Part shown: positions 52,015-57,428 of the stretch, in pieces
How positions within the stretch are numbered: the first letter of the stretch is position 1
How the letters are laid out: every line of letters starts with the position of its first letter
Assembly: GCF_026988555.1 (NCBI RefSeq)
Contig: NZ_JALSLB010000026.1
Span: 1 to 61,773, forward strand
Direction of reading: 5' to 3'
Origin: Thermococcus sp.
GTDB lineage: Archaea > Methanobacteriota_B > Thermococci > Thermococcales > Thermococcaceae
Length of the DNA stretch: 61,773 nt
Position numbers and translations under genes: made by a program
The notes under the pieces: model-generated
Databases searched by the model: none
Seen by the model: only the letters and a program-made list of their open reading frames with translations
Told to the model about the DNA's origin: nothing

Positions 52015-52090
52015 AGCCCCGTGGTGTAGCGGCCAAGCATCGGGGACTCTGGATCCCTGGACCGGGGTTCGAATCCCCGCGGGGCTACCA
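52015..52090 (+). tRNA. tRNA-Gln (anticodon CTG)
   Basis: Acceptor AGCCCCG/CGGGGCT, anticodon loop CTCTGGA (anticodon CTG), T loop TTCGAAT and an encoded CCA form a complete cloverleaf without intron. The TATA box lies about 26-35 bases upstream of its 5' end. Confidence 0.96.
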
Positions 52091-52468: not shown

Positions 52469-52675
52469 ATGGGTAGGGACTTTGAGAGTGAGATTGTGGA
52501 TATGCTTCGAGGGAGAGAACTCACAGTTGCGTTTATCACCCGCTTTCTGATGGAGAGGGGTTTTGAGATCACCAGACAGAAGGTGGAGAGGACACTGAGA
52601 CGACTGGTCAACACGGGCATCGTCGAGGCCAGAATCGGAAACAACGGCAGAAAGCACTACAGGTTGGCACGGTGA
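52469..52675 (+). CDS. Small winged-helix DNA-binding protein
   Basis: This 68-residue protein is one winged helix: IVDMLRGRELTVAFITRFLM, ITRQKVERTLRRLVNTGIVE (recognition helix) and a wing RIGNNGRKHYRL. ATG follows GGGAGGTCGTAGTC. It overlaps or abuts the next regulator gene and sits just upstream of the DUF1102 locus, so it is a likely regulator of it and of itself. Confidence 0.75.
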   Translation: MGRDFESEIVDMLRGRELTVAFITRFLMERGFEITRQKVERTLRRLVNTGIVEARIGNNGRKHYRLAR

Positions 52676-52680
52676 TCGCC

Positions 52681-53112
52681 ATGGGGGCCTCCTCGGTCAT
52701 ACTTGGCAACAGCAGGAGGATGCTGCTCATAGAGTACCTCCGCAGTTGCGAAGGAAAGGCCGAGCTGAGGGACGTGGTCGAGTTCATAGCCAAGAACGAG
52801 GGTAACACCGACCGAAAGCACCGAAAGAGTGTCTACGTGAGCCTCGTTCAAACACATATCCCCAAGCTGGAACGGGAGGGTGTCATAGCCCTGAAGCATG
52901 GGGTGATAACCCTTGTCAGGGTCCCCAACGACGTTACAGTTTATATGGAGACCGTAAAGAAGAACGATATAAGCTGGAGTTCCTTCTACATAGGTCTCTC
53001 CCTGATATTCTTTATAACGGCAATCTACCTGAACAACCTCCACCTTGCGCTGGCCTCAATTATCTACGCCGGCGTTGGCGTTGTCCACCACAGAAAGATG
53101 AGACGTATCTGA
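52681..53112 (+). CDS. DUF7344-type winged helix with membrane anchor
   Basis: This 143-residue protein has an N-terminal winged helix resembling archaeal DUF7344 (RRMLLIEYLRSCEGKAELRD, KSVYVSLVQTHIPKLEREGV) and two C-terminal membrane segments (about residues 98-115 and 118-135) ending in basic residues. ATG at 52681 follows GGTGATCGCC; a GTG three codons earlier lies in that signal. Membrane-tethered regulators of this kind are found next to surface protein genes in archaea. It likely senses the envelope and controls the locus downstream. Confidence 0.75.
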   Translation: MGASSVILGNSRRMLLIEYLRSCEGKAELRDVVEFIAKNEGNTDRKHRKSVYVSLVQTHIPKLEREGVIALKHGVITLVRVPNDVTVYMETVKKNDISWSSFYIGLSLIFFITAIYLNNLHLALASIIYAGVGVVHHRKMRRI

Positions 53113-53157
53113 CCGCCATCCCCAGGGTAATCCCCCGTTACCGGCCGTTAACCTGCC

Positions 53158-53175
53158 ATTTCATATATACCCCAA
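53158..53175 (+). promoter_or_regulatory. TATA box of DUF1102 locus
   Basis: The sequence catttcatatatacccc at about 53158-53174 is a TATA element. The first start codon is at 53334, so the leader would be about 130-140 bases, exceptionally long for this genome. Confidence 0.45.
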
Positions 53176-53308
53176 CGGCCCAAGTAATGGACAGGCAACC
53201 CACGCGGTTGCACGAGGCACTGCGTTGATTTCACCGTTGCAGTGGTTGTGAGTGTATACAAGGTTTAGGGATGAACCCCACTTCACCGCTCGCTTCCTTC
53301 TCCACAGT

Positions 53309-53326
53309 GCCTCCTGATTCGGAGGC
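53309..53326 (+). promoter_or_regulatory. Hairpin covering the ribosome binding site of DUF1102 gene 1
   Basis: GCCTCC (53309-53314) pairs perfectly with GGAGGC (53321-53326) around the loop TGATTC. The 3' arm is the Shine-Dalgarno sequence of the gene starting at 53334. Folding would hide it, suggesting translational control. Confidence 0.55.
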
Positions 53327-53333
53327 GAAAAAG

Positions 53334-53927
53334 ATGAGAAAGAATATTGCCCTTGGAATTTTTGGCCTGCTGGTGGCCTTTGGCCTTGTATTGGGGGCCG
53401 GAGCCAACTTCAGGGACTACAACGCTGACAGGAGTGTCCACTGGGACATCGTCAGCGATGACAACGAGCTCATCGACCTGACGCCCATTCAGCCCTACGC
53501 ATACATAAACGAGGGTGGCGTTCTGGTGGTTGACATAAGCCCGGACAATCCGAACTACCCAGGTTACGGCCAGGGTCTTAGCCCGAACTCGGAGTACAAC
53601 TTCGACGAGGTCTTTGAGGTAAGCAACGACCTCTGGGAGAACAACATGAGTATAGTTGTCAGGATTACCAACGCCAACACCGCGATACAGTTCTACGGCG
53701 CAGACCACGACATCCACGATGCCAGCACCGGCAACATCGTCTACGCCAGTGACATGGCGAAAAACGACGTCTGCTTCGTCGTTGGTCCAGGAGAGGCCGT
53801 TAAGGTCGGCATGGACTTTACAGTTGGCAACGCAGCTCTGAACACCACAGAGAGCAGCAACATACATATAGAGGCCTACAGGCTCGGCACCGAACCCGCA
53901 GAACTGGCCGGAAAGTGTGGGCAGTGA
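53334..53927 (+). CDS. Secreted DUF1102 protein 1 (candidate fibre subunit)
   Basis: This 197-residue protein has a signal sequence (KNIALGIFGLLVAFGLVLGAGA) followed by NFRDYNADRSVHWDIV, the N-terminal signature of archaeal DUF1102. The conserved core DDNELIDL...QPYAYI and PNYPGYGQGLSPNS and FEVSNDLWENN follow. The mature part is Asn/Asp-rich and beta-like with two cysteines. DUF1102 proteins are compared with TasA/camelysin-type matrix proteins; polymerisation is inference. ATG at 53334 follows GGAGGCGAAAAAG. A longer frame to 53271 runs through the hairpin and is unlikely. Confidence 0.85.
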   Translation: MRKNIALGIFGLLVAFGLVLGAGANFRDYNADRSVHWDIVSDDNELIDLTPIQPYAYINEGGVLVVDISPDNPNYPGYGQGLSPNSEYNFDEVFEVSNDLWENNMSIVVRITNANTAIQFYGADHDIHDASTGNIVYASDMAKNDVCFVVGPGEAVKVGMDFTVGNAALNTTESSNIHIEAYRLGTEPAELAGKCGQ

Positions 53928-53938
53928 GGTGAAGAAAG

Positions 53939-54475
53939 ATGAACAAGCTATTTGGACTGGCTTTACTGATGGTTGGAATGCTCCTGGCAGTTGGAGCCGG
54001 GGCCAACTTCAGGTACTACTCCGCCGACAGGCAGGCGAGCTTCGACGTCGTCGCGGATGACAACGAGCTCATCGACCTGACGGCCCTTCAGCCTTACGTG
54101 ACCTACGACGCTGGAAAGCTCTACGTGGACATAACCCAGTACAACCCGAACTACCCGGAGGGTGCAGGCCAGGGCATGAGCCCGAACACAACGTACGTCT
54201 TTGAGGAGATGTTTGAGGTAAGCAATGAGCTCTGGGAGAACAACCAGACCGAGTACCCGATATGCGTCGACATAAAGACCAACCATGAGGGTGTCCTGCT
54301 CTTCGCCGGGAACTACACCAACCCGATTGCAGGACCGGCCAACAACCTGGAGTTCACGGTCTACCACGGAAACCCCGTGCCCATTGGAATGATATTCGAC
54401 AACACAAACGCAACCCTCGGAAACTATCAGTTCCAGATGAGCATAGAAGCCCATGCCGGGGCCTGTGAACAGTGA
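53939..54475 (+). CDS. Secreted DUF1102 protein 2 (candidate fibre subunit)
   Basis: This 178-residue paralogue of the previous gene has the same plan: signal sequence ending GAGA, then NFRYYSADRQASFDVV, DDNELIDLTALQPYVTY, PNYPEGAGQGMSPN and FEVSNELWENNQ. It differs in the C-terminal half. ATG follows GAGGTGAAGAAAG and the spacing of 11 bases shows cotranscription. Two similar but distinct subunits in tandem would suit a main and a minor fibre component. Confidence 0.85.
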   Translation: MNKLFGLALLMVGMLLAVGAGANFRYYSADRQASFDVVADDNELIDLTALQPYVTYDAGKLYVDITQYNPNYPEGAGQGMSPNTTYVFEEMFEVSNELWENNQTEYPICVDIKTNHEGVLLFAGNYTNPIAGPANNLEFTVYHGNPVPIGMIFDNTNATLGNYQFQMSIEAHAGACEQ

Positions 54476-54521
54476 TTTCTTTCCGGGGCCTTTGCCCCAA
54501 ACCCTTTGAGGGGGGGTGCCC

Positions 54522-55580
54522 ATGAAAAAACTAATCGAACTCATCCTTGCGGTCATCATCTTGGTTTTCATTATAGGCTCATTAGCGGGCTTCCTCCTCA
54601 ACAGACCGGTTTTTCTGTCGTACGCTTATTCCAAGAGCATGACCCCCACTATAGATAAGGGCGACCTCTTCATCATGAATCCCTTAGCCAGAAACTTCGA
54701 CGTTGGTGACATCATCGTATTTCACAGGCACGGGGGCTGGACCGTTCACAGGATCTTCGCGGTCACCGATGATGGCTTCATAACCAAGGGAGATAACAAC
54801 GTAGCCACCGATCAGCAGGATGGGCTTTATCCCCCGGTTAAGAGACCGGATATAGCCGGAAAAGTCGTTGTTCTCTTTAGAAAACCCCTCGTCATCCGCG
54901 GTGGTGGAGCGTTTATTCAATCCGCCAGGGCAAAGCTAAGCAACGTCTACGTCATAGCGGTTCTCCTATTCATTGGGGCGTTTCTAACGTTCTCCGGGAG
55001 CTCCAAAAGGAGGAAGAGGATAAAGTATTACCGGGTAAGTGTTAGAACCCTCTACGCAGCCATATCAGTGCTCATCATAGCGGGCTTCCTTTTCGTAACG
55101 GTTGCATCTTGGGGAACGCTGGCCTTCACCTACTCCTCTACCCTCGCGGGCGGTCAGCGGGCCGGCTGGTACCTTCCCGGTTCAACCTTCGAGAAGAACT
55201 TAAGTGTGGAAAACAGGGCAGTTTACCCCTTTTACTACTTTGTAAGTGGGGGAAACGAGAGGGTAGAACTCCTGGGCCCCACGTTCCTCCGCCTCGATGG
55301 TGGTTCAAGCGCCAGCGTTTTGGCTCACGTTACTGTTCCAACAGACACCAGGATCTACCGCGAGGAGTTCCAAGTAAGGTCGTATCCGGCCATTCTACCG
55401 GTGTCCCTCGTCACGTTCCTGTACTCCTTCAACCCGTACCTGCCGCTCGTTGCATATGCTCTCTTCCTGTCGGCAGTCCTGTGGACCTTCTACGTTCTTT
55501 CAGGGGTTTCTGAGGGGGATATTCTTAGAATCAGGAAGCGGAGAGGAAGTCTCCTCTCCAAGATACTCGGAGATGGTTAG
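54522..55580 (+). CDS. Sec11/SipW-type signal peptidase I with extra domain
   Basis: This 352-residue membrane protease has the ER/archaeal-type Ser-His-Asp arrangement: Ser39 in SYAYSKSMTP, His76 in GWTVHRIFA and Asp91 in KGDNNVATD, with GDIIVFHRH between. Beyond a usual archaeal Sec11 (about 150-180 residues) it has a membrane segment near 125-143, another near 168-188, an extracytoplasmic beta-like domain (about 190-295) and a final membrane segment near 308-330. Its position between DUF1102 genes parallels SipW beside TasA, so it probably processes those proteins. ATG at 54522 follows GGGGGGGTGCCC. Confidence 0.88.
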   Translation: MKKLIELILAVIILVFIIGSLAGFLLNRPVFLSYAYSKSMTPTIDKGDLFIMNPLARNFDVGDIIVFHRHGGWTVHRIFAVTDDGFITKGDNNVATDQQDGLYPPVKRPDIAGKVVVLFRKPLVIRGGGAFIQSARAKLSNVYVIAVLLFIGAFLTFSGSSKRRKRIKYYRVSVRTLYAAISVLIIAGFLFVTVASWGTLAFTYSSTLAGGQRAGWYLPGSTFEKNLSVENRAVYPFYYFVSGGNERVELLGPTFLRLDGGSSASVLAHVTVPTDTRIYREEFQVRSYPAILPVSLVTFLYSFNPYLPLVAYALFLSAVLWTFYVLSGVSEGDILRIRKRRGSLLSKILGDG

Positions 55581-55581
55581 T

Positions 55582-56454
55582 ATGAGAAAAGTCATGATAT
55601 TCACGGCCTTCCTGCTTGGACTGCTCCTCATCATGGGTTCGAGTGGGAACTTTCGGGCTTACACATCACAGAGGAGCGCGGAATTCACGGTGGTTAATGG
55701 TAGCAATTCATACGTCGCCTACCGCTGTCTTTCAGAGCCGGTTCCCGTCAATGCAAGCTCCGGCGTCGACTTCACCGCGATAATCGTTGAGAACCTGATG
55801 GACAAATTAATAACCGTGCACGTCGTCGGTGACTACTCAAACCTACCGGACGGGCTCAACGGCAGCGTTGACAGTTCCACCTATACACTTGAACCGGGCG
55901 AGTCCGTCTCAATCGGAGGAAGTTTCTCTACGGGCGACGAAGTTACCAGCGGAACCTACGGTGTTCCACTCACTGTCTACGCCCAGTGGGAAGGGGGAAG
56001 CGCCGAGCTGAGGGACTGTTCCATGTACGCTAAGGTTGAACAGCCGACCTACGTTCTAAAGAAGGGCATAGTGGGGGGTGTTTATGAGTACACGGTTGGG
56101 GAGTGGTATACAATAACACTACAGCTCAACTTCACGAACAACGGCCCGGACGGCGACTTCGTCATAAAGGACGTTATTCCCAACCCCGGATGGAGGGCAT
56201 TTTACCTGGTGGGCCCGCCCCAGCCAAGCTCGGGCAACGCCGACATGTTTATCAGCGCCGGCCACTGCGGTTGTGCCGGCTGGCTAATAGTGTGGCACGT
56301 CCACGTGGCCCATGGAGAGACCGTGACCCTAAACATCCCCATGGAAGCGGTTTTCTTCTGCAGTGGGAACTACATTCTCAACTGTGGGGCGCATCTGTGC
56401 GGGACGCACGTCGTCTCGAACCGCATCACCGTTCATGTAGCTGGAGGTAGATGA
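55582..56454 (+). CDS. Secreted protein with DUF1102-like start and Cys-rich domain
   Basis: This 290-residue protein opens with a signal sequence (VMIFTAFLLGLLLIMGSS) and GNFRAYTSQRSAEFTVV, the same signature as the two DUF1102 proteins. Residues about 40-155 form a first beta domain. The C-terminal half resembles a surface repeat domain (LNFTNNGPDGDFVIKDVIP) with seven or so cysteines in HCGCAGW, FFCSGNY, NCGAHLCGTH. It could be a tip or anchor subunit. ATG at 55582 follows GGAGATGGTTAGT and lies one base after the peptidase stop; earlier frame positions are unlikely. Confidence 0.75.
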   Translation: MRKVMIFTAFLLGLLLIMGSSGNFRAYTSQRSAEFTVVNGSNSYVAYRCLSEPVPVNASSGVDFTAIIVENLMDKLITVHVVGDYSNLPDGLNGSVDSSTYTLEPGESVSIGGSFSTGDEVTSGTYGVPLTVYAQWEGGSAELRDCSMYAKVEQPTYVLKKGIVGGVYEYTVGEWYTITLQLNFTNNGPDGDFVIKDVIPNPGWRAFYLVGPPQPSSGNADMFISAGHCGCAGWLIVWHVHVAHGETVTLNIPMEAVFFCSGNYILNCGAHLCGTHVVSNRITVHVAGGR

Positions 56455-56456
56455 CC

Positions 56457-57428
56457 ATGAAGTTTTATGAAAAGATCGATAAAAAACGGACCATCCTGAT
56501 TGGGATTGCCGTTTCAATTTCCCTCGCCGTTCTGTTCGGGGCCTACTCTGGTCTGGCCTACTCACGGACCCCAATAACGACGAAGGCAACGTATTCCACA
56601 CTGTACACGGAGGAAGGGCACTTTAGACACACCGGGATATTCTCCAACGAGACCATCTACAAGAGTGGAGTATCGCTCAATTACTACCCGTCGAAGATAA
56701 CCGAGGAACTGCTGGGGAACTACACGTTCAGGTTATCCCCACAGGCCACTGGCAGATACGAGGCGGCACTTCACGTCAACTACTACGTGTCGTCCGCCAG
56801 GAAGAAGGTGTACATCCTCAACGAAACGTCGTTCATTGGCCGGGGAGCATTTTCGGGCTCGTTTACCATACCGGTACATCTCAACATGACCGAGCTCGAC
56901 GAGAGGCTTAAGGAGATACGGGAGGGCACCGGACTCTACCGTGCCGAGAGGGAAGTCTATATAACGGTCAAAGTGCTGAGCGACGATAAAGAGCCCTTTA
57001 CTCAGGAAATCCGGCTAAACCGCGACGCCTCAGGGATGCTCTATTTCACGGGGTCCGACAAGGAATACAGAAAGGTCGTCCGGAACGTCAGCACAACGAC
57101 GAACTCACTCTCCTTTGTAGGCTCGGACGTCGGGGTTTCAACTGCCAGAACGGTCTTCCCTGCGATGGCGTTGCTCTTCGCAATTCCCCCAGCGGGCTTC
57201 ATCTACACCAAGAGGGAGAGGAAGCTGGACAAGCTCAAGGGACTAAGGAAGTACGTAGTCGAGGGGACGGCACCTTCAGCAGAGAGAAAGATCGAACTAT
57301 CCTCGCCCAAGGACCTTGAAAGAGTTTTTGAACTTGTTGATCGGCCCATAGTCCATTACCGTGATGGCGAGACCGATGTCTATGTCGTAACCGATGGTGG
57401 AACAGTTTACGAGTATCGGGCTTCCTAG
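56457..57428 (+). CDS. DUF5305-type membrane protein of the fibre locus
   Basis: This 323-residue protein has a membrane segment near residues 12-32, an extracytoplasmic domain of about 190 residues with several NxS/T glycosylation sequons, a second membrane segment near 225-245 and a basic then acidic cytoplasmic tail of about 80 residues. This plan matches archaeal DUF5305 proteins, found beside signal peptidases. It probably serves assembly or anchoring. ATG at 56457 follows GGAGGT; ATG at 56451 is too close to it. It overlaps no later gene and ends the locus. Confidence 0.75.
   Translation: MKFYEKIDKKRTILIGIAVSISLAVLFGAYSGLAYSRTPITTKATYSTLYTEEGHFRHTGIFSNETIYKSGVSLNYYPSKITEELLGNYTFRLSPQATGRYEAALHVNYYVSSARKKVYILNETSFIGRGAFSGSFTIPVHLNMTELDERLKEIREGTGLYRAEREVYITVKVLSDDKEPFTQEIRLNRDASGMLYFTGSDKEYRKVVRNVSTTTNSLSFVGSDVGVSTARTVFPAMALLFAIPPAGFIYTKRERKLDKLKGLRKYVVEGTAPSAERKIELSSPKDLERVFELVDRPIVHYRDGETDVYVVTDGGTVYEYRAS

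Follow-up and report, generated by a model that had tools for sequence, protein, structure and literature searches.

The window analysed here is a stretch of 61,773 nucleotides (nt) from a contig of a Thermococcus sp. with a source genome of 1.97 Mb, and the region under study, positions 52469-57428, holds seven genes, all on the + strand, which probably make a surface fibre with its own signal peptidase. An earlier note on this DNA had described two winged-helix genes followed by two tandem secreted proteins sharing the signature NFR.Y.ADR, a Sec11-type signal peptidase, a third secreted protein with a related start and a two-span membrane protein, co-directional and closely spaced, and each of these elements was found in its place.

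P0001 (52469..52675) is a small winged-helix protein with weak TrmB/helix-turn-helix (HTH) matches; its orthologue heads the cassette in most of the sampled loci, and it is likely a local transcription regulator. P0002 (52672..53112), whose start overlaps P0001 by 4 nt, is a DUF7344 winged-helix protein (PF24035, 62 bits) with a hydrophobic C-terminal hairpin (hydrophobic stretch 100-131), and is probably a membrane-bound regulator. The regulators are separated by 221 nt from the first DUF1102 gene, and a TATA-box-like sequence of the structural genes, TATATA, lies in between (53164..53169, + strand; invariant in an 11-sequence alignment). P0003 (DUF1102 protein a, 53334..53927) and P0004 (DUF1102 protein b, 53939..54475) scored 183.5 and 183.1 bits with PF06510 (DUF1102), respectively, both above the curated cut-off of 22.2 bits. 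P0005 (54522..55580) is a Sec11-type S26 signal peptidase (TIGR02228, 62.3 bits, cut-off 51.85 bits), P0006 (55582..56454) is a secreted DUF1102 paralogue with an additional C-terminal DUF11-like domain, and P0007 (56451..57428) is a DUF5305 membrane protein (PF17231, 31.1 bits, cut-off 29) with two predicted spans near 12-37 and 227-253 and a cytoplasmic tail, making it a candidate anchor. The gaps inside the structural part, from P0003 to P0007, are 11, 46, 1 and -4 nt.

P0003 and P0004 are paralogues, with 84 identities over 174 aligned residues. Both start with a plain Sec-type N-terminal signal peptide (MRKNIALG... and MNKLFGLA..., respectively) and share the signature G-A-G-A-N-F-R-x-Y-x-A-D-R, to which GSSGNFRAYTSQR in P0006 is related. 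P0003 was modelled with AlphaFold2 using 58 sequences, giving a signal helix followed by a beta-sandwich at a mean predicted local distance difference test (pLDDT) score of 81. Residues 23-43, just past the signal peptide, are unfolded in the monomer model (pLDDT < 50) and are among the best conserved parts of the protein, as would be expected of a donor strand. The model was compared with 350,542 chains using Foldseek, and the top match was AbpA (7ueg), the bundling pilus of Pyrobaculum calidifontis (E 1.5e-5, probability 1.00, 178 columns), followed by the archaeal tube-forming filament 9bab (E 8.9e-4) and then by SafA and FimG. The latter two are pilins that use donor strands. The earlier note had named a monomer lacking a TasA-like beta-sandwich as a finding that would speak against a fibre; what was obtained is a predicted sandwich that best matches AbpA. 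On this model P0003 is a probable fibre subunit, and P0004, through its paralogy, is a candidate second one. A phage major tail protein (9lwa, E 7.5e-4) was also retrieved for P0003 and set aside as a chance match, the alignment starting within the signal peptide and neither P0004 nor the family profile giving a match.

The first domain of P0006 was aligned with DUF1102 by hhalign at 98.6% (E 1.4e-15), and at E 1.9e-10 after removal of the signal peptides, so that by profile comparison P0006 is a third DUF1102 paralogue. Its second domain is DUF11-like in relatives (DUF11 in 9 of the 27 family members) and is missing from one genus, where the gene has 123-141 codons (L065/L006, L069, L070); P0006 is a candidate for the tip or for an adaptor of the fibre. 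No solved relative was found when the thermococcal P0006 family was used for profile searches. Many relatives carry another DUF1102 copy, DUF1102c (L029:2631-3125, L077:7511-8026 and equivalents), which is absent from this Thermococcus clade. This copy is without NFR.Y.A.R and has first a hydrophobic span and then K/R-P-I-x-x-S-Y-A, a motif similar to the D-R-P-V-x-x-S-Y-A with which the neighbouring peptidase begins. It seems to retain a membrane anchor and is possibly an anchored terminal subunit.

P0005 matched SEC11A at E 2.8e-11, and its S39, H76 and D91 are invariant in 31 sequences; the roles of the Ser, His and Asp residues are known from Sec11. The catalytic domain covers about 30-120, with spans near 1-33, 137-162, 172-203 and 306-329, and an extracytoplasmic beta-domain (about 204-305, model pLDDT 88) is fused behind it together with the three further spans. 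The outgroup and the haloarchaeal relatives retain this second half, the latter with profile matches at positions 7-326 of 356 (E 4e-58) and 4-320 (E 8e-44). The better superpositions of the beta-domain were with MSP and PapD-like immunoglobulin (Ig) folds, at a template modelling score (TM-score) of ~0.5 and E 5e-3 to 0.04, which are below significance for folds that are common and indicate a putative fold class only; the Ena fibres, which were its top matches by E-value, were set aside at a TM-score of ~0.25. Elsewhere the genome encodes two ordinary-sized S26 signal peptidases, with open frames of 179 and 189 codons, and the presence of a third one within this operon counts in favour of a fibre locus.

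The gene order was compared across relatives, as the earlier note had proposed, in one outgroup locus and 19 Thermococcaceae loci from six genera. Across these loci a common order recurs, regulator - DUF7344 - DUF1102a - DUF1102b - (DUF1102c) - peptidase - P0006 - DUF5305, which is complete in most of the 19; the P0002 orthologue is present in 19/19 and also in haloarchaeal loci. Loci with neighbours other than the pyrophosphatase and RNA polymerase subunit genes retain the order as well. Among 94 Thermococcaceae genomes, 87 retain the unit; DUF1102 and the peptidase are both present in 86, both absent in 6 and found one alone in 2, that is, jointly present or jointly absent in 92/94 (Fisher p 6e-8). 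Of the six genomes that lack both, four are incomplete drafts and two are near complete (G047, G062); draft gaps explain several of the exceptions. Because the order recurs with differing flanks and the two genes are present or absent together in 92/94 genomes, the association goes beyond chance. The claims of a dedicated processing enzyme, of subunit genes at close spacing and of linked regulators hold up.

The same cassette is present in Archaeoglobus and Geoglobus, and a diverged version, its subunit set included, occurs in haloarchaea. The Archaeoglobi stand at three positions among the Thermococcaceae in the peptidase tree, whose rooting is unsure, and this scatter suggests that the cassette was transferred. 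At the chromosomal site beside the pyrophosphatase and RNA polymerase subunit genes, Thermococcus species carry two deeply diverged cassette versions (L077-L080 versus 52469-57428). In the peptidase tree the three-subunit version clusters with Archaeoglobus and other genera, which looks like a swap of the cassette in place. In one locus (L073, genome G101) the DUF1102 genes are deleted, leaving a remnant, while the peptidase, P0006-like and DUF5305 genes are kept, and in another (L081, genome G050) the cassette is decayed, with stop codons interrupting the genes. A tRNA-Gln gene (anticodon CTG) is located at 52015-52090, ~380 bases ahead of the cassette in the present genome.

A presumed mRNA leader of ~140 nt, its transcription start placed from the TATA-like box (53164), lies between this box and the start of DUF1102a, and its pairings were followed in 28 main-clade relatives against slid controls, which were 35-52% paired over the whole structure. 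The leader contains, on the + strand, a hairpin P1 (53195..53211; GCAAC 53195-53199 with GTTGC 53207-53211), which is paired in 99.3% of cells with double changes at 2/5 pairs, and a strand A GAGGCACTG (53214..53222; GRGGCACTG across relatives), which pairs over about 90 nt with a strand B CAGTGCCTC (53305..53313). The third part, a hairpin GCCTCC-TGATTC-GGAGGC (53309..53326), hides the ribosome-binding site; in relatives a short loop separates CCACRGTGCCTC(C) from GGAGGC, which is the ribosome site. This hairpin is 98.8% paired, with a stem that does not vary and a loop of 3-7 nt. Since strand B is used in both pairings, the A-B helix and the ribosome-site hairpin are mutually exclusive. An upstream in-frame ATG at 53271 was considered as the start of P0003 and rejected, because the loop lengths of the relatives break that reading frame.

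The leader appears to be specific to this position. The pattern GTGCCTC...GGAGGCGA occurs once in this genome, and a covariance model placed the element once per genome in 34 genomes (E < 1e-18), with only weak matches elsewhere; its matches lie upstream of DUF1102a wherever positions were compared. The simple sequence pattern agrees with the covariance model except for a few matches at other places, and Rfam 15 gave no covariance-model match to the leader up to E 1. In lineages without this hairpin (L027, L070, L071, L072, L077), other, unrelated-looking stable stem-loops are found shortly before the same start codon, mostly sparing the ribosome site.

Whether the leader has a switching role must be weighed against a simpler account, in which a strong ribosome-binding site gives rise to the hairpin as a side effect, with no switching involved. 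We give this account somewhat less than an even chance. It agrees with a hairpin stem that never covaries, because one of its sides is the ribosome site, and with a predicted balance between the two pairings that differs among species. Strand A, however, is free of the ribosome-site constraint, and yet the A-B helix is paired in 98.0% of cells, far from the slid controls, with compensating double changes at 3/9 pairs; over 14 sequence classes the own A-B pairings were also better than swapped ones (p 0.001, kinship not corrected). The folding energy of the ribosome-site hairpin, extrapolated to high temperature, is near -1.8 kcal/mol at 80 °C and 0 at 90 °C.

Among known systems, the earlier note had likened the locus to TasA-SipW. 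In Bacillus subtilis, TasA-TapA-SipW brings a subunit, an accessory subunit and a dedicated signal peptidase together in one operon, and AbpA has been described as part of a TasA-like system (PMC9674648). The core idea of the earlier note, a surface fibre with its own peptidase, stands at the level of fold and synteny. The TasA-SipW label does not, because DUF1102 proteins gave no sequence match to TasA or AbpA (single sequences and profile searches), P0005 reached 30.1 bits with the NCBIfam SipW model against a cut-off of 190 bits, a second half is fused to the peptidase, and among named loci that of the haloarchaeal Taf fimbriae comes nearest. The envelope is also archaeal here. To our knowledge, the TasA-TapA-SipW operon has no counterpart of the two-span DUF5305 protein or of the membrane regulator. 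AbpA, like P0003, is a secreted beta-sandwich of a hyperthermophilic archaeon and aligns over nearly the full length; the present locus differs from it in having two paralogous subunits, a two-domain third and a fused peptidase. The thread of Sulfolobus acidocaldarius is comparable to the system proposed here in being a donor-strand fibre exported by Sec, with a paralogue-like protein as its putative cap (PMC9715654). On the side of the differences, the authors of that work could assign no chaperone or usher in the thread locus, and thread pilins were not among the P0003 fold matches listed.

Taf, which we take to stand for the 'Tat-fimbriae' of haloarchaea, was searched with the NCBIfam models (June 2026) TafA, TafC, TafE and TafF. 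Halorubrum coriense has proteins exceeding the TafA, TafE and TafF cut-offs, and near them a DUF7344 gene and a homologous long peptidase. The homology of the haloarchaeal peptidase to P0005 extends to the second half (E 8e-44 to 4e-58), the haloarchaeal subunits carry a similar signal-adjacent motif, G-S-G-A-F...A-x-R, and a DUF5305 protein is found in the haloarchaeal locus XH8. The two systems differ in gene order and in export signal, with a twin-arginine start in the haloarchaeal subunits as opposed to the plain Sec-type signal in the thermococcal ones, and the subunits are only weakly similar: P0003 scored 24.5 bits with TafA and 17.4 bits with TafE, below the cut-offs of 190 and 155 bits, respectively, and the best match of DUF1102 proteins to TafA was 1.9e-6 (58 members). 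From the homology of peptidase and regulator and the weak similarity of the subunits, the thermococcal and Taf loci are best read as related systems, whose subunits appear to have diverged to the detection limit with a change of export signal. The literature library that was searched contained no usable work on DUF1102 or Taf.

Several results weigh against a fibre of this kind. The overall TM-score of the P0003 model with AbpA is ~0.4 at a root mean square deviation of 9.9, and the AbpA match therefore rests on local structure, although the low score may reflect the unplaced N-terminus of the model. Profiles built from the thermococcal DUF1102 family alone retrieved neither AbpA nor TasA, and sequence searches gave no convincing solved relative of this family. 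The similarity to the haloarchaeal subunits lies mostly in the signal region and falls to E 5e-4 to 0.04 without it. In favour of a fibre, a joint thermococcal and haloarchaeal profile matched the solved haloarchaeal pilin 9p0a, itself TafE-like, at E 1.9e-14, but this match comes from a profile including haloarchaeal members; 9p0a was not among the P0003 Foldseek matches listed.

With these points counted, we still consider it a good deal more probable than its competitors that a thin surface fibre akin to AbpA/TasA is built from this locus, with donor-strand subunits, a dedicated peptidase, P0006 as cap, P0007 as anchor, and control by regulators and leader. A surface fibre with its own peptidase is well supported, and its closer models are AbpA and the haloarchaeal Taf, not TasA-SipW. 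In this scheme P0003 and P0004 would be exported via Sec and cut by P0005 after the signal peptide, near G-A-G-A/N-F-R, which would free an N-terminal strand. The subunits would then polymerise head to tail, the freed strand of one being inserted into the next. P0006 would cap or decorate the fibre as a tip or adaptor, while P0007, with the non-catalytic half of P0005, would hold or guide it at the membrane, and the anchored DUF1102c copy of relatives may end the chain there. The winged-helix proteins would set transcription and the structured leader translation. The analysis itself gives the gene content, its conservation as a unit, the paralogies, the catalytic residues, the predicted folds and the conserved pairings of the leader; the cleavage site, donor-strand exchange, the tasks of the individual subunits and the regulation are what we infer, as are the fibre, its anchoring and the role in a biofilm matrix, all of which the earlier note had put forward. 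The earlier note had not described the DUF1102 paralogy of P0006, the peptidase fusion or the leader RNA, and the last two are parts that a specialist would not expect. A bolder version, which we regard as speculative and rather doubtful, has P0005 with its PapD-like domain both releasing each subunit and shielding the subunit's open groove until assembly, and a translational RNA switch of two exclusive pairings over one strand, the ribosome-site hairpin being predicted as marginal at 80-90 °C, metering the main subunit; the shielding of subunits as PapD does is, for this beta-domain, purely hypothetical.

It is also conceivable, though unlikely, that the DUF1102 proteins associate with the S-layer or are secreted in soluble form, served by the peptidase and the anchor and forming no polymer. 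In its favour, many archaeal surface proteins have a beta-sandwich fold, non-fimbrial Ig-like MSP domains were also among the matches of the P0003 model (E 0.01-0.04), and P0003 and P0004 both carry glycosylation sequons; on the other hand, the two best matches among solved structures are both polymerising archaeal surface proteins, and donor-strand fibres are usually made up in this way, of paralogous subunits with a strongly conserved but unfolded N-terminus and with a peptidase of their own. A structure resembling the Pyrodictium cannulae, whether a tube or a connector between cells, suggested by the second-best fold match 9bab, a tube ~27 nm wide, and by work on donor-strand complementation in cannulae that appears in the reference list of PMC12326000, is very improbable, as AbpA matches better and the operon, with its processing enzyme, adaptor and anchor, is like fimbrial loci.

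In conclusion, a function is hereby proposed for DUF1102 and its neighbourhood (DUF7344, DUF5305 and the unnamed P0006), which is nearly universal in Thermococcaceae. The predicted fold ties the locus to AbpA, while the peptidase and the regulator tie it to haloarchaeal fimbriae. Relatives of such fibres hold biofilms together in other microbes. Since some Thermococcus are genetically tractable, fibre assembly without an usher or an outer membrane becomes testable in this family, and the leader, if it is truly a switch, would mean that RNA takes part in controlling an archaeal surface structure near the temperature limit of RNA folding.

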